A stretch of DNA of 64,000 bases from a virus, in the IMG/VR virus record IMGVR_UViG_3300030104_007230, positions 18,165 through 82,164 of that record. One strand, given 5' to 3'. Each line of letters starts with the position of its first letter. The stretch's first letter is position 1. Positions 4,206-62,549 of the stretch are shown piece by piece. The notes beneath the pieces are model-generated. The model did not search any database, was not told the DNA's origin, and saw only the letters and a program-made list of their open reading frames with translations. A program made the translations under genes and the position numbers.

Positions 4206-4583
4206 ATGGCTAAAATTACACCAGGTCAATTTTTAAAAGGTTTTGCTGAACAATACAATAAAGATCAAGGAATGGTCCAAGACAAATCAGGAAGTTGGAG
4301 TCGTGGAACACATACTGCACAAGCTAAATCAACAAGTGGTCAAGGAGGAGCAGGAGGAATAACTATAAACCAAGGAGGCGGAGGAGGCGGCGGAATGTCA
4401 TCCCTAGCTACTGATGTAAAATTTAAACAAGGTGATGATTTAGAAAGAGCAGGACATAGAATTCCAGGAGATCCAGGAAGTAAAGGATTCCTTGGAACAG
4501 CAGTTAGATTTGGATCTAATTTCTTGCCAGGAGTTGGTCCTATGGTAGGGCAAGCAGTAGCTCCTCATCTTGATTATGTTTAA
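4206..4583 (+). CDS. Paralogue 1 of a Gly-rich protein with conserved C-terminus
   Basis: 125 residues starting MAKITPGQF. A TTG 33 nt upstream in frame is possible, but the ATG at 4206 follows the previous stop by 2 nt and gives the better N-terminus. The middle has runs of Gly. The last ~50 residues (GDDL, IPGDPG, KGFLG, FLPGVGPM, GQAVAPH, DYV) are almost repeated in the next gene, so these are tandem paralogues. The hydrophobic, Gly-rich C-terminus could insert in or dock to a membrane. Function unknown. Confidence 0.65.
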   Translation: MAKITPGQFLKGFAEQYNKDQGMVQDKSGSWSRGTHTAQAKSTSGQGGAGGITINQGGGGGGGMSSLATDVKFKQGDDLERAGHRIPGDPGSKGFLGTAVRFGSNFLPGVGPMVGQAVAPHLDYV

Positions 4584-4621
4584 AGTTAAAAGTGTTAATT
4601 TACTTTCTGTATAATTAAATT

Positions 4622-5050
4622 ATGAATTTCCTTAAAAACTTTAATCCGTTTTCTTACGAAACAACTCCAGGGACATCAGGTTGGGGTCCAGTGGCAGATG
4701 GAGCAGTTTACGGTAGAAATCTTCAAAAACAAGATGCCGCAAAAAAGTTCTTAAACGCCTTCACCGATTATATGGGCGATGGGCGAAGCGGTAATACACA
4801 ACAAGCAAAAGATTTTGGAGGACTTACTCCTTTTGGAGGAGCAGGTCAAATGAGTGCAAAAACATCACAATTAGCTCCTGATGTTTTCCTTAAAGAAGGA
4901 GATGATTTAAGTAAGCATGATCATGTAATTCCAGGAGATCCAGGCAAGAAAGGGTTCCTTGGATCTGCGATTAGTATTGGATCTAGTTTCTTACCAGGAG
5001 TAGGCCCAATGATAGGGCAGGCAGTAGCTCCACATTTTGATTATGTCTAA
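4622..5050 (+). CDS. Paralogue 2 of the Gly-rich C-terminal family
   Basis: 142 residues. The N-terminal 90 residues differ from the upstream gene, but the C-terminal ~50 (GDDL, IPGDPGKKGFLG, FLPGVGPMIGQAVAPH, DYV) match it closely. The 38-nt gap before it contains TATAATTAAAT, a possible -10 box. No known family. A shared C-terminal anchor or assembly tag with variable N-termini is the simplest reading (inference). Confidence 0.65.
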   Translation: MNFLKNFNPFSYETTPGTSGWGPVADGAVYGRNLQKQDAAKKFLNAFTDYMGDGRSGNTQQAKDFGGLTPFGGAGQMSAKTSQLAPDVFLKEGDDLSKHDHVIPGDPGKKGFLGSAISIGSSFLPGVGPMIGQAVAPHFDYV

Positions 5051-5114
5051 ATTTAGAGGAAGTAAAATATTTTTTAAGAGAATCAATTTTTACAAGAGAA
5101 AAAGAGGATAAATT

Positions 5115-5780
5115 ATGGCATTTTGGATTCCTGCGATAGGTGGAGCATTAGGTGCCATCGAAGGATATAGAAGAGGTGGAATAGGAGGAGCAATAACAGG
5201 AGGTGCTTTAGGTGCAGTAGTTCCTAAAGGATTAAGAATGGCAGGTGTTGCTTTAGGAGGAACTAAACTTGGAGCAGGTATAGCTTCTGGAATTGGAAAA
5301 GGAAGAAACTTAATTGGACTACAAGGACCAGCAGCTTCAGGAAGTACAGTATTAGGAGGTCTATTACCAGCTGTAGGACTCGGTTTAAATGTTCCTGGTG
5401 TAGTAGGAGGAGCAGCTGGAGGGGCAGTCGGTGGAAAAGGAGTAGCCAATCAGTATCCAGGAAGCTCTACTGGTCCAGTTTCAGGAGTATATGATTATCT
5501 CAGTCCTATTAGTTCTAGAAATTTACAACTTGGATGGACACAAAAAGAACTTGATCAACAAAGACAAGCTGTAGTAGATCAAGCTATTGCATTAAGACCA
5601 ATAATGGAAGCAGCAAAAGAAGAAGAACTAAGAAGAAATATGGCTGCAGCTAACTACAGAACAGCACTTGGAACAGAACAAGGACTTACTCTACAAAGTC
5701 AATTAGGTGCACAACAATTAGGTCGTGTAGGTGCTGACAAAGTATTAGGTGCTTTAGCAGCTAACTACCAGTATCAATAA
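5115..5780 (+). CDS. Glycine-zipper protein, probable virion/ejection protein
   Basis: 221 residues. Residues 1-125 are dominated by Gly and Ala with repeated GxxxG spacing (GGALGAIEGYRRGG and similar), as in glycine-zipper membrane helices. The C-terminal half is charged and helical (EEELRRN region) and Gln-rich. Such a layout suits a protein that crosses or perforates the host membrane during ejection, which fits its place in the virion gene run. No named family recognised. Confidence 0.65.
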   Translation: MAFWIPAIGGALGAIEGYRRGGIGGAITGGALGAVVPKGLRMAGVALGGTKLGAGIASGIGKGRNLIGLQGPAASGSTVLGGLLPAVGLGLNVPGVVGGAAGGAVGGKGVANQYPGSSTGPVSGVYDYLSPISSRNLQLGWTQKELDQQRQAVVDQAIALRPIMEAAKEEELRRNMAAANYRTALGTEQGLTLQSQLGAQQLGRVGADKVLGALAANYQYQ

Positions 5781-8734: not shown

Positions 8735-10258
8735 ATGGCAGGAACAAGCATTTATTCTGTTTATCGAAGAACTGCACGTGCTGCAGCTAAACAGCAAATA
8801 GTTAAAAAAACATCAGATATTGATGTAGATAGAGCACGAGTAGATTTTGCTTATTTTTGTGATGTTGTAGGAGATAAACCACCAGCAAAACATATGGAGT
8901 TATGGCATGAGCATCTTTATACGCATGAAGATAGTGAATGTTTAGTAGGAATCGCTGGGCCTAATGTTGATATTCTTGCTCCAAGAGGTTCTGCAAAATC
9001 AACAGTTTTAGGTTTATTCACAGCATGGGCTATAGGTATTCATGCATTACATCGAAAGCCTTTAAAAATACTATATATTTCTTATACAGTTGATGTTGCA
9101 CGTCCTAAAAGTGCAGCTATTAAAAGAATTATTGAAGAAAGTAAGAGATATAAAGAAATCTTTCCAATGGTTAAAATTGCAAAAGGAATTAATTCTAATG
9201 AATATTGGAGTATTGATTGGAAATTTGCAGGTATTAGATCAACAGGTGAAGAAGAATTTAGTTTATGTTGTGCAGGTCTTAAAGGTGCAGTGACTTCTAA
9301 ACGTTCACATCTTTGTATTATTGATGACGCAATTAAATCCGCTGACGATATTAAAAATAGAGATATACGTGTAGCTATGGAAGAGAACTGGAACTCAGTC
9401 ATTGTTCCAACAATGTTTGAAGGAGGTCGAGCAATATGTCTAGGCACACGTTTTCGTCATGATGATATACATCAAACAACTTTTACACCTGATAATGATT
9501 GGATACAAATTGTTCAATCTGCATTAATTACAGATGGAGAAGAAGGTGAAAAATCTTATTGGCCAGATATGTGGTCTGTTGAATATTTAAATGATAGAAA
9601 AAGACAAGCTCCTGTAAGTTTTAGTTTTCAATATCAAAATCAAATAGTAAGAACAAGTGAAATGTCAATTTCACCTGATTTAATTATTAAAGGGCAAATA
9701 CCTACTGAATTTGATTGTTTAGGTGTAGGTGTTGATTTATCTGCAGGAATTAGGGAAAGAAATGATTATACAGTTTTTGTAATGGGTGGAAGAGTCGGTG
9801 ACAAAATTCATATCATTGACTGTAAACGATTGCGAATTATGGGTAACGTAGAAAAATTAGAAGCCATTATGGATATGATGTATGAATGGGGGGTTGTACA
9901 TAAAGATGGGGATCAATTTTATCCAACAGGAAGCACGGTAGATATATGGTCAGAAGCTGTTGCTTATCAGGCTTCTTTAGAAGCAGACTTTAAAAGAATA
10001 TGCTTAGAAGAACAAGGTTTACATAATCTTCTATGGCATCCTGTTAAAGGTTTTCGTGGAGATAAAGTTGCACGTTTTAGAGGTATTATGGGTTTATTTG
10101 AACGACATAAAATTAGATTTAATAAGTATCGAAAATTTCAAGCATTAACAGATGAAATAGTTAATTTTGGAGTTAGTTCACATGATGACTGTGTAGATGC
10201 ATTAGTTTGGCTTTGCAATGGTTTAATGTCTAGAGGAAAACTAGAGTTAGAGTATTGA
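8735..10258 (+). CDS. terL: Terminase large subunit (packaging ATPase/nuclease)
   Basis: 507 residues, typical for the family. The ATPase half has a Walker A variant APRGSAKST at residues 82-90 and a Walker B LCIIDDA at 193-199. The nuclease half has the RNase H-like acid cluster: VGVDLSAG with Asp334, and HDDCVDAL near 483-490 with Asp484, 485 and 488. It pumps DNA into the prohead at the portal and cuts it. A shadow ORF on the minus strand is ignored. Confidence 0.93.
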   Translation: MAGTSIYSVYRRTARAAAKQQIVKKTSDIDVDRARVDFAYFCDVVGDKPPAKHMELWHEHLYTHEDSECLVGIAGPNVDILAPRGSAKSTVLGLFTAWAIGIHALHRKPLKILYISYTVDVARPKSAAIKRIIEESKRYKEIFPMVKIAKGINSNEYWSIDWKFAGIRSTGEEEFSLCCAGLKGAVTSKRSHLCIIDDAIKSADDIKNRDIRVAMEENWNSVIVPTMFEGGRAICLGTRFRHDDIHQTTFTPDNDWIQIVQSALITDGEEGEKSYWPDMWSVEYLNDRKRQAPVSFSFQYQNQIVRTSEMSISPDLIIKGQIPTEFDCLGVGVDLSAGIRERNDYTVFVMGGRVGDKIHIIDCKRLRIMGNVEKLEAIMDMMYEWGVVHKDGDQFYPTGSTVDIWSEAVAYQASLEADFKRICLEEQGLHNLLWHPVKGFRGDKVARFRGIMGLFERHKIRFNKYRKFQALTDEIVNFGVSSHDDCVDALVWLCNGLMSRGKLELEY

Positions 10259-10495: not shown

Positions 10496-12721
10496 ATGAG
10501 TAAAACAAATCCAGCTTTTGAAGCAATGCTTGATTCAGTCATAAACCGTGAAAATACGGGTGCTGCTGATTCAATGCTAATTAATGCTCATCTAGCTCAA
10601 ATGAAGATGTTTGGGATTAGACAAGGTGTTGAATTTTTTCCTGAACAAGATAATTACGGAACACAAAGATATGATCTTATTCAACAAGTTATAAAATTCA
10701 ATCAATTAGATGCAAGATTAGATGCTATTTGGGATCATTTTTTAGCATTAGGAAAAGGATTGTTTTATATACGCCCAACTAAAAAAACATATCGAATTTA
10801 TTGGTTTGATAAGAATTCGTATCGTACTTATTATTCACCAGAAGGTGAATTAGAAGAAGTCATTATTATTTATCCTTACAAAGTTAGATCTTCAAAAGGA
10901 TTTGCTGCTAGTCAAATTGGTTTAAGTACAGATAAAAGATACATGCGTCTGCGTATTACAGCTGAAACTATTGAAGAGATGCATAGTGAGCAAGAACTTA
11001 GTTTTGATACTCCACAAGAATTTTCAACTTTACAAACGAAAGAGTTAGTAAATACGATGCAATTTATTCCTTGTGTTGAGGTTTTTAATAATCCAGATGC
11101 ATTTGGTACAGAAGGACGAGGTGATTTCGATTGGATAGCTAATCAAATTGTTGCACATGATGAAATGGTTAAAAATATTAGAGCAAACTTATCTTTCTTT
11201 GGGAATCCAACATTACTTTCTTCTAGACCTAAGCAAGATATTGTTGAAAGCAATAATCAAGATAATCCACCACAACGTCCAAGTATTTCGAGCCAATCTG
11301 GTTTTACTTCTGATTTAAGTATTCTTCAATCAACTTATAAACAAGATCCTGTAACGAGAAATCCAGCTGGTTATATAGGAAGCCCTGGAGCAGGAATGCG
11401 TGTTCCGCGTGTTATAGCAAATTTAGAACCTTCAGATCGTGTTGGTTTTATTACTCCTAATGCAGTTAGTACTGACCAAGCTAGATTTGCTGAACAATTA
11501 CGTAATGAGATACGACTTGCTTTGGGAGGTATTGACGATCTTTCTATTAGCAATGTAACAGCAACAGAAATTAAATCTCAATATGGACGAGTTAGTGCAA
11601 CAGCTAAAAAGAAATGTCTACAACTTTATAATTATGGAATTTGTAAATGCTTTGAATTAATTATTTTTCAGGAAGAAGAGATTTTTAAGAAGACACTTGC
11701 ACAAGCAATTGGTCTTAAAACTGTTGAACTTCCATTAGATGATTCACCTGAAGAACAAGCTAGATACGACAAACAACAAGCTAGATATGAAAGAAGATTT
11801 AGTAAAGCAGTTGCTGAAGTAGAAGAAACAAAAGTGATACCACCAGGGGTTTTAGGGCTTGCACCTGATGGAACAAGAAATGTTGAATGGCGATGGATGG
11901 GACCTGTTTATGAGGATACAACTCAAGATAAATTAAACCAATCTATCTTCACTAGAAACCTTCAAGAATTAGGGGTAGATAGTATAGAAGCACTGAAGTA
12001 CTTATTTCCTTCTAAAACCGATGACGAAGTAGCTGGAATGTTATCTGGCTTTCCCTTCCGAATGGTGGGACAAGTGCAAAAGGCTTATTCCACATTTATT
12101 GATCTAATCAATCAAGAAATGAGGACGCCTCATCCACAACAGCCTGACTTACCTATGTCGGCTGATCCGAGATTCGATCTCACCCCGTATTTATACAGAA
12201 CACTCGAAAGCTTACAAAAAGAACTGACCTATGCAGGACGTTTCCGTAGCGCCGACCCAATCGGCACCCCAACCCTCCCAGACCCAGCCGATAAGCTACG
12301 CGGCTCCAGTGGCGGCGGCTCCTTCACAGGCACCGCAGGTGGTTTCAACGACCAACCAATGGGCGGCAGCTCCTACAGGAGCGGTAGCACCAGCACCACA
12401 GGTAGCGGCCCAGATAGGAGTGACTCCAACCCAAGCGACCCCTACCCAGTACTACCCCCAGACCAGCCCCTCTCAAGCACCAACCCAGGAGAATCCTTAC
12501 AAGGACGCCTTCAACAGGGTGGTAGGACTCCTGAGTTCGCCAGTGCAAGTCCCCTTCCTGGGTCAACAATCCAGTCAGACATCAGAAGTAAGCCAGGCCA
12601 ATTACAATTCGCCACAACTAACCCCTTACAACAATCAGGTTCAGCAGACATCGCAGCCTGGGATGCAGAACAGCCAGGTATCCTCAAACGCTTATTCCCC
12701 AACTTCGGAAGGAATAACTGA
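10496..12721 (+). CDS. Portal (head-tail connector) protein
   Basis: 741 residues. The N-terminal ~550 residues look like a podovirus-type portal: alpha/beta wing region (YRIYWFDKNSYRTYY), then helices with ATEI and SATAKKKCLQLYN, a likely crown stem, then PVYEDTTQDKL. It follows terL and precedes the scaffold and capsid genes, the usual order. The last ~163 residues are Gly/Ser/Pro-rich and probably disordered. They are encoded in a GC-rich stretch that also codes, in another frame, for the start of the scaffold-like protein. Confidence 0.8.
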   Translation: MSKTNPAFEAMLDSVINRENTGAADSMLINAHLAQMKMFGIRQGVEFFPEQDNYGTQRYDLIQQVIKFNQLDARLDAIWDHFLALGKGLFYIRPTKKTYRIYWFDKNSYRTYYSPEGELEEVIIIYPYKVRSSKGFAASQIGLSTDKRYMRLRITAETIEEMHSEQELSFDTPQEFSTLQTKELVNTMQFIPCVEVFNNPDAFGTEGRGDFDWIANQIVAHDEMVKNIRANLSFFGNPTLLSSRPKQDIVESNNQDNPPQRPSISSQSGFTSDLSILQSTYKQDPVTRNPAGYIGSPGAGMRVPRVIANLEPSDRVGFITPNAVSTDQARFAEQLRNEIRLALGGIDDLSISNVTATEIKSQYGRVSATAKKKCLQLYNYGICKCFELIIFQEEEIFKKTLAQAIGLKTVELPLDDSPEEQARYDKQQARYERRFSKAVAEVEETKVIPPGVLGLAPDGTRNVEWRWMGPVYEDTTQDKLNQSIFTRNLQELGVDSIEALKYLFPSKTDDEVAGMLSGFPFRMVGQVQKAYSTFIDLINQEMRTPHPQQPDLPMSADPRFDLTPYLYRTLESLQKELTYAGRFRSADPIGTPTLPDPADKLRGSSGGGSFTGTAGGFNDQPMGGSSYRSGSTSTTGSGPDRSDSNPSDPYPVLPPDQPLSSTNPGESLQGRLQQGGRTPEFASASPLPGSTIQSDIRSKPGQLQFATTNPLQQSGSADIAAWDAEQPGILKRLFPNFGRNN

Positions 12722-13253
12722 TGAACAGCTTTTAGCCAATGGAGTAAGTCAGCAAAGTCTTAAGGTAATTGATCATTTTGGTCCTGATGCAGCAGCAGTT
12801 TTAAATAACTATTCTTGCAAGATAGAAGATGCACTTATCCATACCGATTCTCAGTTAAGAGAGTCAGTAGGACTTTTACAGGAACTAAATAATGAGCATA
12901 AAATTTATGAAAAGATTTTGACTGATCCAGACGTTCTTGCTGATTATACTTGCCAGTTCTTTGGAGAAAATGGTCCTTATCCTGTACAAGGGCAAGAAAA
13001 AATACAGCCTACATATCAGCAAGTTGGTCAACAGACTATTCAGAATGCACCTCAAGTTGTTCCTGATCCACAAGCAGCACAATATAGACGTCCTGAAATG
13101 CCTGTTCCTCCACAGCCTCAAGCTCCTGAGAATGCAGGTGATTTCTGGAATAACTTTGGAAACATCGCTGAAAGAGATCCACAAAATGCATGGCGTTATT
13201 TGAATACTCAGACTCCTGAGACATTCAGACAAAAAATGCTTGTAATGGAATAA
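12231..13253 (+). CDS. Putative scaffolding/capsid assembly protein, out-of-frame overlap with portal
   Basis: 340 residues, Pro/Gln/Ala-rich at both ends with a helical middle (residues about 165-235). This composition and the position between portal and capsid fit a scaffold. The frame opens at a TGA just 2 codons before the ATG at 12231, so this is the longest possible form. The first 491 nt lie inside the portal gene in the +1 frame. An internal ATG at 12663 would give a 196-residue form with little overlap. That the overlap is real is supported by the local GC rise that ends at the portal stop. Confidence 0.7.
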   Translation: MQDVSVAPTQSAPQPSQTQPISYAAPVAAAPSQAPQVVSTTNQWAAAPTGAVAPAPQVAAQIGVTPTQATPTQYYPQTSPSQAPTQENPYKDAFNRVVGLLSSPVQVPFLGQQSSQTSEVSQANYNSPQLTPYNNQVQQTSQPGMQNSQVSSNAYSPTSEGITDEQLLANGVSQQSLKVIDHFGPDAAAVLNNYSCKIEDALIHTDSQLRESVGLLQELNNEHKIYEKILTDPDVLADYTCQFFGENGPYPVQGQEKIQPTYQQVGQQTIQNAPQVVPDPQAAQYRRPEMPVPPQPQAPENAGDFWNNFGNIAERDPQNAWRYLNTQTPETFRQKMLVME

Positions 13254-13277: not shown

Positions 13278-13305
13278 AAAGGGTAGTAAATAACTGCCCT
13301 TTTTT
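13278..13305 (+). terminator. Rho-independent terminator after scaffold gene
   Basis: A 10-bp stem AAAGGGTAGT / ACTGCCCTTT with one G-U pair and a 5-nt loop, followed by six T. It lies 24 nt after the scaffold stop and before the next plus-strand gene. Confidence 0.8.
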
Positions 13306-13326
13306 ATTATTCAGAATTAAAATATT

Positions 13327-14319: not shown

Positions 14320-15471
14320 ATGTTTATTGATAACGATTTCCCTAAACTGCTCGGTGCCGAACTTTATCGTCCGCACCCAGCCTATATCGTGGAGATGGCT
14401 TGCGAGCCAATAGTGGTCCACGATTTTACGAAGCAACCAGGTCAGACTGTTCAGTTAGACCGTTACAGGTTCTTCGGCGCTCCAGGGACAAAATCCAACC
14501 GTGAGCGTACACAAGATCAAACAATAGGTACAGCTAATAGTCGTTCGATTGTTAAGGACAAAGTTCTAGTTTCTCTTCGTGAGTACACTGGTCCTGCAGA
14601 TCCTAACAATGCGAATCTTCCTAGTACTTTCAAGATTGCCCGTGAAACCTTGATGACAGCGCAGCGTTTGCTGCTTGACACAGGGAATCTCAACATGTTC
14701 CATCAGTCAATAGGTAGCTTAACCCTGCTTGATGACTACAGAAGATGGAGAGATAGAGTCTTCCTTGACGAATTATTCAAGGCAGAATCACGTGGTAAGT
14801 CTTCTGATACTCAAGGTGGTTACTACTATCCTGAGAATCCTACTAAGGCTACTAGCACTTCTCTACCTGCTTATAGTGCATCTCAGTATGCATCTGAGCG
14901 TTTCAAATTTAACGTTAAAACTGACCTTCTAGAAGTAGTTAAAGGTTTGCGTAAGCGTAACGTACCTGTCTTTGCAGATGGCTACTATCGCTGTATTGCT
15001 GACCCTTCATTCATGAAGGACATGAGAGCTGATTCTGGCTTCCGTGAAGTTGCTCGTTACCCTGGCATGGGACAGCCAAATCCTCTTATGAGTGCACAGG
15101 CTCCCAACGCAGCTGTTTATGGCGGTGGTCAGTTCGGGCAAGCACAGTTTGTAGGCGGTGAGCCAGTTATGCCATCAGGATTCGTCTTTGAAGGTGTAAG
15201 GTTCTTCGAATCTACTAACATGCCTAGCAAAACCATTTCGGTCGATATTGGTGATGGAAACGGTGCACAAACACGTGACACCCCTCCTGCTCTTTTCTTT
15301 GGTCCTCAGTCCGTTGGCGTCGGCATTGGTGGTCCTAATGCTCAAGTTTTGATTAATAACAATGATGACTTCTCAAGATTTATCATTCTTATATGGCAGC
15401 TTTATGCTGGTTTTGCGAACTTGAACAAGGACTTCACAACAGTCGGTTTCACCGTTACTGAAGCTTATTAA
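14320..15471 (+). CDS. Major capsid protein (HK97-fold type, probable)
   Basis: 383 residues. Position after portal and scaffold, length, and codon use support the call: the 5' third uses many C/G-ending codons unlike its AT-rich neighbours, as expected for a very highly expressed gene. The stretch FADGYYRCIADPSFMKDMR is like the P-domain region of N4 gp56-type capsid proteins. No membrane segment or enzyme motif. The assignment is strong by context, moderate by sequence. Confidence 0.8.
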   Translation: MFIDNDFPKLLGAELYRPHPAYIVEMACEPIVVHDFTKQPGQTVQLDRYRFFGAPGTKSNRERTQDQTIGTANSRSIVKDKVLVSLREYTGPADPNNANLPSTFKIARETLMTAQRLLLDTGNLNMFHQSIGSLTLLDDYRRWRDRVFLDELFKAESRGKSSDTQGGYYYPENPTKATSTSLPAYSASQYASERFKFNVKTDLLEVVKGLRKRNVPVFADGYYRCIADPSFMKDMRADSGFREVARYPGMGQPNPLMSAQAPNAAVYGGGQFGQAQFVGGEPVMPSGFVFEGVRFFESTNMPSKTISVDIGDGNGAQTRDTPPALFFGPQSVGVGIGGPNAQVLINNNDDFSRFIILIWQLYAGFANLNKDFTTVGFTVTEAY

Positions 15472-58979: not shown

Positions 58980-59290
58980 TAGAACTTCAGTACTTTATGG
59001 CCTGACTCAAGTATGTCAAGCAATTTATCAGTAATTTTCTCAATAATACTTACATCAATATTCAAGAATGGAGGAATTATTCCTAGAATTCTTAACAATC
59101 CATCAACAAACGCAGCCATAATAATAAAACCAAGAATCATGCTAATAATTGTTGCTTCTCTATTATGCTTTTCCATTGATAATCTATCAATTTCTCTAGC
59201 TTCCTCTACTGCAGCCTCTATCATTGCGTCAACCTCTATTTTGGTATAACACATTTGAGGTAAAATTTCTCTAATTTTTTCTTCAGTCAA
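58979..59290 (-). CDS. Small membrane protein
   Basis: 103 residues: charged N-terminus, hydrophobic stretch about 47-74 (ATIISMILGFIIMAAFVDGL, LRILGIIPPF), charged helical end. First gene of the SSB operon. No family recognised. Confidence 0.55.
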   Translation of the reverse strand: MTEEKIREILPQMCYTKIEVDAMIEAAVEEAREIDRLSMEKHNREATIISMILGFIIMAAFVDGLLRILGIIPPFLNIDVSIIEKITDKLLDILESGHKVLKF

Positions 59291-59337
59291 GTAAAGGAGT
59301 AAAGGGAATAGAATTAGGTTAACAATATTTTAATATA

Positions 59338-59526
59338 ATGTCTGATAGATTTGCAGGAGAAAACTTACAAGGTTGGAATCCTTTTCATTGGAAAGAGATA
59401 CTTCAAAATAAAGTAGACAGTGCTATAGATACTGCAAGAACTAATCCTAATCAAAATCTTATAGGAGGAAGTGGAATGCGTGGTAATAGAGAATTAATTG
59501 AAAATATCTTGAATCAATCGTATTAA
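59338..59526 (+). CDS. Small hypothetical protein on plus strand
   Basis: 62 residues, Asn/Arg-rich (DRFAGENLQGWNPFHWKEIL, QNLIGGSGMRGNRELIENIL). An isolated plus-strand gene inside the minus-strand replication arm. Preceded by TATAATG overlapping the start. It resembles the small virion-type proteins at 42 kb in style. Convergent with the small membrane peptide gene. Confidence 0.5.
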   Translation: MSDRFAGENLQGWNPFHWKEILQNKVDSAIDTARTNPNQNLIGGSGMRGNRELIENILNQSY

Positions 59527-59621
59527 ATAGGATGATTTGGATGAGAATTATCTATTAATAATCGTATTACAAAATAAATAAGTACTATTAAAAAAATAAC
59601 AAGAACAGTTGATCCTTCCAT
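59523..59621 (-). CDS. Very small membrane peptide (32 aa)
   Basis: 32 residues (EGSTVLVIFLIVLIYFVIRL, then LIDNSHPNHPI). One membrane helix with a polar tail. Starts 5 nt after the DNA polymerase stop, so it is likely translated from the polymerase transcript. Its stop overlaps that of the plus-strand gene. Confidence 0.5.
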   Translation of the reverse strand: MEGSTVLVIFLIVLIYFVIRLLIDNSHPNHPI

Positions 59622-59626
59622 AGTTT

Positions 59627-61477
59627 TTAATGCGTTTCCATCCAATTCTGTCCAATTCTAGCTTCACCTGTCAAGGGACATTTTAAATTAAAATACTGAC
59701 CTGATTTTTTAAATGAATCAATTGCAAGTTCTTTAAATATTTCTGTATATTCAGGTCTAACAAGAGCTTGTACCTCATCATGAACATGAGCAACAAGTCC
59801 CCAATCTTTTCCAAAAGATAAATTAATTCTTTCCATAGAATCATAAAGAATTGTTGTGGATTTTTTAACAGCAATAGCACCAGTTGATTGTAATAATTGG
59901 TTTAAAGCAGAATGTTTAGATCTTATTTGTAAATGTCTACCATCAATTCCTTTAAGATAACTTCTATCTCTTAAAGCAATTTCAATATTATCTTTTAGTT
60001 GTTTAATAGCAGGTAAGTTTCTATAGAAAGTATTTATAGTTTCCTTACCTCTACGATATTGTTGATCTTCAGTTCCTTTAGGTAAAATAATTGATCCTGT
60101 TTTTTTACCTCCGCCACCATAAAGAATGCAATAAATTAGCCGCTTACTGAGATCTCTAGTTGCTTTTTCTATAGGTTTATCATGTTCTTGTATACCAAAT
60201 AAACATGCATTATGAAAATGAATATCACGCTCAGGATTACTAACTAGAGCAGCATACTCACCGTCGTCGTAATAAGCTAACCAGTGGCCAAGTGCCCTAA
60301 GTTCTAGCCCAGAAGCATCTGCACCTACTAACTTCCACCCCTTTGGAGCATAGAAGAGAGCACGGCACTCAGCACCATAAGGATGACCAACACTTGGAAT
60401 TTGCCCAGTATTGGGACGTTTGTGTGCGCAGCGTCCCGAAATTGCCGCGTTGGTAACAACTTCACCATGTATCTTGCCATCGTGGTATCGATCACAGTGT
60501 TTAAGCCACGCTTCTTTGCCTTCCGCAATTTGACCTATCCTTTTATTAAGAAGTTGATATTCAGCTAATAGTTTAGCTTCAGGATATTTAGTACCTAATT
60601 TATTTAAAACATCATCATCTACTTTTGGTGAGCCTTTTTCTGTCTTTTCAAAAGTAATTTCAGGATATTTTTCTTTAAGTCTTTCAGAAGTTTGTTGCCT
60701 TGAAGCTGGATTAAAATTGGTAACTTTTGTTTTTAATTGTTTACCAGTTTTTTCTGACCATCTTTCTAATGAGATAGGAGGAAAAGTTTTTTGAAGTGAT
60801 TCTTCTAACTCAGCACGTTTAGCTTTTAAATCATTAACTAAAGCATAAGCAGCTTTTGAATTAAAAGGAAAACCAAATCTCTCTTGTAGAGAAATAACAT
60901 GGGCAAATTCATGTTCTAAAAGTAAAGAACGTTTGTCCATTTTTTGAGTAAGAAAATATTCATATAATTTATGGGTAACAATTGTATCTTGTTCACAATA
61001 TTCCTGCATACTTATAGTCCATTTTTCCCATACATCTTCTACATCAGTTTCTTTTTTTGTTTCTTCAGTGAAAGCTATTTTTTTAGTATTAAGCCTTTCA
61101 CCCCAAGCGGCTAAAGAATGTCTACCTTTATATTTAGGTTCTATATGTGCCCATCTAGAATAATCAAACGGATCTAGTTCAGGTGCCCAGAGACGACTAG
61201 CAACTAATGTATCAAAGACTTTGCAGCTTCTTTTTAATTTAAAAATTTTAGGACATATCTTTTCTAAGACAGGAATATCATACTTTATTACATTATGTCC
61301 AATTAATAAGTCTGCTGAATTAAGAATTTCAATTCCTTTAAGAATAGAAAGATATCCTTTTTGATCTGCGCAACTTATTATTTCATTATTTTCAATATTT
61401 CTTAAAACTAAAGAATGAATAGTTGTAACAGTATCTAATAGTCCGTTTGTTTCTAAGTCAAAAATGAATGCTTTCAT
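59627..61477 (-). CDS. Family A DNA polymerase with 3'-5' exonuclease
   Basis: 616 residues, a compact T7-type layout. Exo motifs: FDLETNG (Asp7, Glu9), IGHNVIKYD (59-67), EYCEQD (159-164). Polymerase motifs: A GADASGLELRALG with Asp387, B RDLSKRLIYCILYGG with Lys445 and Tyr449 (the residue equivalent to E. coli Phe762), C HVHDEV with Asp567. Tyr at 762 is the T7-like state. It is the replicative polymerase. Its ATG overlaps the previous gene. Confidence 0.95.
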   Translation of the reverse strand: MKAFIFDLETNGLLDTVTTIHSLVLRNIENNEIISCADQKGYLSILKGIEILNSADLLIGHNVIKYDIPVLEKICPKIFKLKRSCKVFDTLVASRLWAPELDPFDYSRWAHIEPKYKGRHSLAAWGERLNTKKIAFTEETKKETDVEDVWEKWTISMQEYCEQDTIVTHKLYEYFLTQKMDKRSLLLEHEFAHVISLQERFGFPFNSKAAYALVNDLKAKRAELEESLQKTFPPISLERWSEKTGKQLKTKVTNFNPASRQQTSERLKEKYPEITFEKTEKGSPKVDDDVLNKLGTKYPEAKLLAEYQLLNKRIGQIAEGKEAWLKHCDRYHDGKIHGEVVTNAAISGRCAHKRPNTGQIPSVGHPYGAECRALFYAPKGWKLVGADASGLELRALGHWLAYYDDGEYAALVSNPERDIHFHNACLFGIQEHDKPIEKATRDLSKRLIYCILYGGGGKKTGSIILPKGTEDQQYRRGKETINTFYRNLPAIKQLKDNIEIALRDRSYLKGIDGRHLQIRSKHSALNQLLQSTGAIAVKKSTTILYDSMERINLSFGKDWGLVAHVHDEVQALVRPEYTEIFKELAIDSFKKSGQYFNLKCPLTGEARIGQNWMETH

Positions 61478-61731
61478 TAGAAAACCTTGTTATACAACTG
61501 AGCAATGTTAATAATTTTTGTTTCTGGAAAATTAGGATCGAATTTTATAATTCTTTTTTGAATAGCTTTTGCTCCTGTAATAGTGTTAAAACAAATAGCT
61601 TTATTTAATATCGTTACATTCAATGCAGGAAGTAAATTAAATTTTTTATTTTTTTTATCAATTGAAACAATAGATGTTAAATCTAAACTTACAAGAACAT
61701 ATCCTCTTTGCATTGGTCTACTCCATGTCAC
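61477..61731 (-). CDS. Hypothetical protein
   Basis: 84 residues, strand-rich (YVLVSLDLTSIVSIDKKNKK, ALNVTILNKAICFNTITGAK). It is coupled to the polymerase start by a 1-nt overlap and itself overlaps the upstream gene by 14 nt. A polymerase-linked small protein of this kind is plausible; no family recognised. Confidence 0.55.
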   Translation of the reverse strand: MTWSRPMQRGYVLVSLDLTSIVSIDKKNKKFNLLPALNVTILNKAICFNTITGAKAIQKRIIKFDPNFPETKIINIAQLYNKVF

Positions 61732-61999
61732 CTTTATTAGGTAGTTTCTGCATAATATAAATATCTAAGGCAATATGTAATAAAGAAGGAGCCATTGAAA
61801 GAGCTTTCTGAGGTAAGCCTCCAAAAAAACTTTCTAATTTATCATTCAAATCACTTCTTTCTAATTCACGGTATTCAACCGCAAACATCTGTGCTAAACC
61901 TAATAGAAAGTCTTCTAAATCTTCATCTTGATTTTTAAGACGTTCAACCAGTTCCCATAATTCAGGGTCTGCTTGAATCATCTGAATTAATTCATTCAT
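61718..61999 (-). CDS. Hypothetical acidic helical protein
   Basis: 93 residues, acidic, helical (IQADPELWELVERLKNQDED, LEDFLLGLAQMFAVEYRELE). First gene of the polymerase operon. Its start codon is only 1 nt from a plus-strand start codon in the other direction. Confidence 0.55.
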   Translation of the reverse strand: MNELIQMIQADPELWELVERLKNQDEDLEDFLLGLAQMFAVEYRELERSDLNDKLESFFGGLPQKALSMAPSLLHIALDIYIMQKLPNKGDME

Positions 62000-62000
62000 A

Positions 62001-62549
62001 ATGAGACAACGAATACGCCGTCAGCTTATCAGTACTAAATTTAAACTCAATAAAAAGTTATGCAAACTCTTTATTGATCCTTGGTATACCTATGAAAAAG
62101 ATTTCTGGGTATGGAATGTAGGTTTTGCAATAGGAAGATCAAATCGTCAGCTTAATGATTGGTATAACCAAAGAAAAAATAAAAGAGCAAATGCTCTTAG
62201 AAAAAAGATGAGTGGTCCAGGAGATTACAGATCTTTTTATCAAGCATGGAGAAGAATTTTAAAATTAAGATGGCAATTGCCTCCTGGAGATAGTCTTATG
62301 ATTGATTGCACGGGAGCGTATCCAGAACAACAATATAAAGTTTATAAATTTTTAACAGATTCTAAACACAGGCAACACCCTGATTGGTCTTGGAGAGAAG
62401 AGTTAAAACAAATTTATTGGACAAGACCTCCTTCTAGAATCCATCCTGCATGGAAAAAAGGGATAATCATTCCAAAACTTCCAAAAGATCTTTATGGATC
62501 AGTAACATCTAAAAATTATTCAGACTCTTTCTATGTTTCCTTAAAATAA
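62001..62549 (+). CDS. Basic hypothetical protein
   Basis: 182 residues, Arg/Lys/Trp/Tyr-rich (MRQRIRRQLISTKFKLNKKL, FYQAWRRILKLRWQLPPGDS). Basic and aromatic, hence perhaps nucleic-acid binding. Divergent from the polymerase operon, with start codons almost touching, so its promoter must lie in the neighbour's coding region unless translation starts further in. Confidence 0.55.
   Translation: MRQRIRRQLISTKFKLNKKLCKLFIDPWYTYEKDFWVWNVGFAIGRSNRQLNDWYNQRKNKRANALRKKMSGPGDYRSFYQAWRRILKLRWQLPPGDSLMIDCTGAYPEQQYKVYKFLTDSKHRQHPDWSWREELKQIYWTRPPSRIHPAWKKGIIIPKLPKDLYGSVTSKNYSDSFYVSLK

Follow-up and report, generated by a model that had tools for sequence, protein, structure and literature searches.

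A long same-strand overlap between the portal gene and a probable scaffolding protein gene is conserved in phages related to Synechococcus phage S-EIV1

The window, the whole 64,000-nucleotide (nt) stretch of DNA analyzed here, is part of an 86-kb virus record and contains a portal protein gene of 741 amino acids (aa) at positions 10496 to 12721 on the plus strand, situated between the genes encoding the large terminase (8735 to 10258) and the major capsid protein (14320 to 15471, plus strand, 383 aa; phrog_1357, 2.1e-15). The portal gene matches phrog_20475 (1.9e-206), which is annotated as virion structural protein. Its identity as a portal, proposed in the earlier note from the letters alone, was confirmed by fold: the predicted model, which is of low confidence (pLDDT 50.9), gave 48 Foldseek matches at E<=0.001, with the portals of SaPI1/80alpha, T7, SPP1, and Pan3 at the top (best E 1.5e-08) and cyanophage portal structures also among the matches. 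A second open reading frame (ORF) of 340 aa, a gene probably encoding a scaffolding protein, occupies positions 12231 to 13253 of the plus strand in the +1 frame relative to the portal and extends 532 nt beyond the portal end. The two ORFs share positions 12231 to 12721 (plus strand), and the length reported previously for this dual-coding overlap, 491 nt or 163 codons, was reproduced exactly. In the portal frame, the overlap encodes a disordered Gly/Ser/Pro tail (residues about 579 to 741).

The predicted model of the +1-frame protein is of low confidence. Most of its N-terminal half is predicted to be disordered and is Pro/Gln/Ala rich, and the predicted helices comprise a short one at residues 89 to 102, a long one of 45 residues at 187 to 231, and C-terminal helices at 302 to 339; the composition of the protein is acidic. 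Just 3' of the gene is a hairpin followed by a T-run that resembles an intrinsic terminator (13278 to 13311, plus strand). Its position is no more than suggestive of a transcript end before the genes encoding the 166-aa, 117-aa, and capsid proteins, as three terminator-like hairpins were found in the region and 3.0 were expected by chance.

GC content in the window is highest in the overlap, at 0.572, compared with a window mean of 0.351 and a maximum of 0.481 for any 491-nt stretch elsewhere. A recount gave 38 of 60 bases as G or C in both 12241 to 12300 and 12301 to 12360, identical to the values in the earlier note, and the drop directly after the portal stop was also found, at 22 of 60 rather than 21 of 60. 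C occupies the wobble position of 45% of portal codons in the overlap versus 7% upstream and, as had been pointed out, it coincides with the second position of Pro, Ala, Ser, and Thr codons in the +1 frame. When the portal tail was re-encoded with the codon usage of the upstream portal, the expected GC content was 0.443, and when the N-terminal arm of the second protein was re-encoded with its downstream codon usage, it was 0.437. The observed value in the same comparison, 0.576, is well above the approximately 0.44 that either protein alone would give, so that the excess is a joint effect of the two frames. The high GC content is therefore a product of dual coding, arising from the Pro/Ala/Ser/Thr codons and the amino acid content of both frames. 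The cause suggested previously, the avoidance of stop codons, did not hold up: upstream codon usage in the portal tail would introduce an average of only about 1.9 stops, which makes stop avoidance a minor contributor.

Relatives were gathered using four portals as queries against viral contigs and bacterial and archaeal genome contigs. Synechococcus phage S-EIV1, with 52% portal identity, was the sole relative among annotated phages. The portal tree contains four well-separated, deep clades: those of the window and of S-EIV1, and two others termed clades C and D. The group related to this cyanobacterial phage is large and mostly uncultured. Each of the 302 loci whose portal end is complete has a +1 frame that is open, contains a start, and overlaps the portal end by 446 to 641 nt; this count includes the window and many contigs that are near-copies of each other. 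Two additional loci (L073 and L259), in which the portal frame is broken upstream, retain an intact overlap and are not exceptions, bringing the count to 304 of 304. Relatives combining a short portal with a separate scaffold gene, for which the earlier note had proposed to look, were absent from the complete loci, and the searched collections, in which phage records yielded only S-EIV1, contained no outgroup with a nonoverlapping pair of portal and second genes. S-EIV1 itself (KJ410740.1) carries the gene pair too, with an overlap of 554 nt (record positions 59287 to 59840) and a second protein of 325 aa; its GenBank record places a 402-nt coding sequence (CDS) after the portal stop (AHV82225.1), names both genes "hypothetical protein," and does not record the overlap. 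The major capsid gene of S-EIV1 also appears to be mis-annotated (locus L081, KJ410740.1 60784 to 62010): a 383-aa ORF running from a GTG at 60859 to 62010 is homologous to the window capsid protein, but the record shows AHV82227.1, a CDS on the minus strand, and AHV82228.1, a plus-strand CDS that is truncated, at this position.

The proteins encoded by the two frames of the overlap share features across the clades. The motif ENPYKDAFNRVVGLLSSPVQVPFLG of the +1 frame (12495 to 12569, plus strand), which contains the sole predicted helix within the overlap, is kept in all clades, with the clade D version being NPWQEAFQALSASLN, and the NPxxxAF motif of the +1 protein is likewise maintained. In the portal tail, the motifs GES..GG.. 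and PGSTI/PGxxL are common to the clades, most relatives have a basic C terminus, and no relative examined has a truncated tail. The window portal (12676 to 12721) is without the basic C-terminal tail (KRSKRSKS-like) that is present in most relatives; it stops about 15 residues early, resulting in the shortest overlap in its clade.

The putative internal translation start (12213 to 12233, plus strand) consists of a Shine-Dalgarno-like sequence, AAAAAGAA, followed by an ATG that lies within the portal codons TAT-GCA (Tyr-Ala). The Shine-Dalgarno sequence is weak in the window, and most relatives have AAGGAG or AAAGAGG; the best AAGGAG-like match was 6/6 in 81/81 loci of the S-EIV1 clade and 63/63 loci of clade D and 5/6 in 78/81 loci of the window clade, and it was weak in many clade C loci. 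A start codon is kept in 302 of the 302 complete loci. It is an ATG in three clades, formed by the portal Tyr-Ala codons TAT-GCN, whereas the 63 loci of clade D, without exception, and two loci of clade C have TAC-AGT-GG at the site and a GTG one codon later, a pattern for which the portal tree requires two independent switches. At the sequence level, these features indicate that the inner gene has its own translation start. Upstream of the second gene, matches to a sigma-70 promoter were as frequent as expected by chance.

The +1 relation of the frames would also permit ribosomal frameshifting from the portal gene to give a portal-scaffold fusion instead of internal initiation, and a minor fusion product is conceivable. 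This explanation is very improbable given the conserved start codon with its Shine-Dalgarno sequence, rebuilt as GTG in clade D. In addition, the upstream sequences of most loci show a +1-frame stop two codons 5' of the start, and a frameshift upstream of that stop would end in termination. The start site also bears on the proposal that only the downstream gene is real, with its beginning either at 12663 or beyond the portal stop, and that the open +1 frame is a by-product of a GC-rich, low-complexity tail. The GenBank annotation of S-EIV1 begins after the portal stop, in keeping with that proposal, and the stop-free +1 stretch is not significant in the window sequence alone: when the portal codons of the window were shuffled synonymously, the frame stayed open in 376/5000 to 1008/5000 trials, and its length was not used as proof. 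In several relatives, a frame open by chance is less frequent (for example, 0/5000 trials by permutation in L158 and 20 to 26/5000 in S-EIV1), and conservation in 304/304 relatives together with the substitution tests described below removes the doubt. A start at 12663, which the earlier note had named as evidence against the overlap, was rejected, as a Met at that position occurs in only 1 of 71 aligned proteins; the maintenance of the start site and of the NPxxxAF motif across clades also argues against a downstream-only gene, the probability of which is close to negligible.

Selection was assessed with an OLGenie-style count, in which substitutions among about 165 non-redundant representatives were sorted by their effects in both frames, and a dummy +1 frame on the upstream portal sequence served as a control; all ratios are simple counts that are uncorrected for multiple hits, which applies to the control as well. 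For the +1 frame, dNN/dNS was 0.24 to 0.31 in the four clades compared with 0.85 to 0.91 for the dummy frame, a difference that also speaks against a gene confined to the region after the portal. For the portal tail, dNN/dSN was 0.37 to 0.58 in the four clades compared with 0.14 to 0.15 for the portal core. Differences at 4-fold synonymous sites fell from 0.58 to 0.69 upstream to 0.12 to 0.29 within the overlap for the portal and from 0.47 to 0.64 downstream to 0.29 to 0.44 within the overlap for the second gene. Both frames thus passed the check for reduced synonymous change and the overlap-aware test of dN/dS that the earlier note had recommended. Taken with the dummy control, the two ratios indicate that both proteins are constrained and the inner one more so, with strong purifying selection acting on the +1 frame and moderate selection acting on the portal tail. 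The tail, being the less constrained frame, could be viewed as a dispensable extension tolerated by chance next to a single functional +1 frame; however, its ratio falls clearly short of 1, the upper bootstrap limit being less than 0.65 in every clade, and neither the retention of its motifs across clades nor the absence of truncated tails fits such a view, which we regard as improbable. The dual coding originally proposed for this locus is established on evolutionary grounds by the overlap-aware ratios and by the conservation of the gene arrangement, of the start site within the portal gene, and of the sequences of both proteins.

Reduced synonymous change is not confined to the overlap. A zone at about 11966 to 12230, reaching up to the start of the second gene, also shows it, and the 5' edge of this zone is a 33-nt portal-internal element, GAATTAGGKGTTGATAGCATTGAAGCACTGAA (11966 to 11998, plus strand), about 235 nt upstream of the internal start. 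The element has almost no synonymous change in two clades and is nearly identical between them, six-fold codons included, although their portals are only about 52% identical; clades C and D retain it only in part. Within 11966 to 11998, the RNAalifold energy was weak, there was no compensatory change, and Rfam returned nothing credible, and no further frame was consistently open in the suppressed zone upstream of the start, so that no promoter, RNA fold, or additional ORF accounts for the conservation of the element.

Assignment of the +1 protein as a scaffold is plausible but unproven and is reasoned from its position, size, and predicted helices. The gene order of portal, second gene, and capsid is that of T7 and P-SSP7. 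In the window and in two clades, the +1 gene is near the capsid gene, and intervening genes separate the pair in clades C and D; its place next to the portal is fixed, while its distance to the capsid gene varies from approximately 0.1 to 2.8 kb in two clades to approximately 3.3 to 3.8 kb in clade D. The label "scaffold-like" used previously fits the position, size, and helix layout; no scaffold homolog was found: PHROGs, Pfam, and PDB sequences returned no match to the +1 protein, Foldseek (with the low-confidence model) returned no scaffold, and hhalign profile comparison found no similarity to gp9 of T7 or P-SSP7. The overlap could be real and its +1 product another head or portal-associated protein, such as an internal virion or portal-vertex protein, with a different protein near the capsid gene acting as the scaffold. 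The absence of scaffold homology and the attachment of the gene to the portal, at a variable distance from the capsid gene, would suit that explanation, which we consider less likely given that the position after the portal, the size, the acidic composition, and the layout of disorder, long helix, and C-terminal helix are suited to scaffolds, and that scaffolds are poorly conserved and often not recognizable by sequence. Other genes occur near the scaffold-like gene in individual contigs: in a clade D contig (L296, 7659 to 8618), a gene encoding a complete sigma-70 factor, with regions 1.2, 2, 3, and 4, lies between it and the capsid gene, and an ORF downstream of it in a clade C contig (L205, 7358 to 8611) matches phage lysozyme and peptidase M15 and possibly encodes a two-domain endolysin.

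The preferred reading, to which we assign a probability of about 0.83, is a true same-strand overlapping gene pair in which internal initiation at the ATG at 12231 yields a 340-aa head assembly protein, most probably the scaffold. Ribosomes would translate the portal gene to its end, and other ribosomes would bind the Shine-Dalgarno sequence within the portal gene and start the +1 frame at 12231, producing the protein on which the capsid probably forms. An excess of scaffold over the 12 portal subunits could come from strong internal initiation or from a separate transcript. Dual coding may be tolerated because the shared DNA encodes flexible, low-complexity segments, namely, the portal C-terminal tail and the N-terminal arm of the scaffold. 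A functional coupling can also be imagined, in which the scaffold is initiated beside the nascent portal tail, the two come together while they are being synthesized and nucleate exactly one portal vertex in each head, and the element at 11966 to 11998 sets the ratio of scaffold to portal; we offer this as speculation that is rather unlikely to be correct.

Small genomes and accessory proteins are the usual setting of long out-of-frame overlaps. In the phages related to S-EIV1, an overlap of approximately 500 nt has been maintained across four deeply divided clades of aquatic phages with genomes of roughly 80 kb, and its start was restored where it had been lost. Genes of this type are trimmed by standard annotation, as seen in the truncated version carried by the only cultured member, S-EIV1. 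The group provides a well-sampled natural system for the study of dual coding and raises the question of why portal and scaffold remain tied at the DNA level.

Several known systems share parts of this arrangement. As in lambda C/Nu3 (J02459; C at 4418 to 5737 and nu3 at 5132 to 5737), the scaffold would come from an internal start in another head gene. However, Nu3 is in frame with C, so that one protein sequence is used twice, whereas the inner gene here lies in the +1 frame and two frames give two sequences; furthermore, the portal gene is the outer one in the window, and the inner gene continues for 532 nt beyond it. Genes 8, 9, and 10 of T7 and P-SSP7 likewise encode the portal, scaffold, and major capsid in that order, but a 99-nt gap containing promoter phi9 separates portal and scaffold in T7, the two genes overlap by only 1 nt in P-SSP7, and no sequence similarity was detected between gp9 of either phage and the second protein found here. 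In the out-of-frame nested spanin genes Rz and Rz1 of lambda, a tailed phage also shows conserved dual coding in two frames of one strand; nested reading frames are cited in PMC10695390, and spanin diversity is covered in PMC6139136. Rz and Rz1 are lysis genes rather than head genes, and they are fully nested with a shorter overlap. A review of viral overprinting covering phiX174 and other viruses describes overlap products as rich in disorder and stresses accessory products in small genomes (PMC8227390); in contrast, the present overlap joins two core head genes in a double-stranded DNA phage of roughly 80 kb. No earlier report of a long out-of-frame overlap between portal and scaffold genes was found in the open-licence literature searched. 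The pair belongs to a known kind, same-strand overlapping genes, of which it is an unusually long, ancient, and unannotated example.
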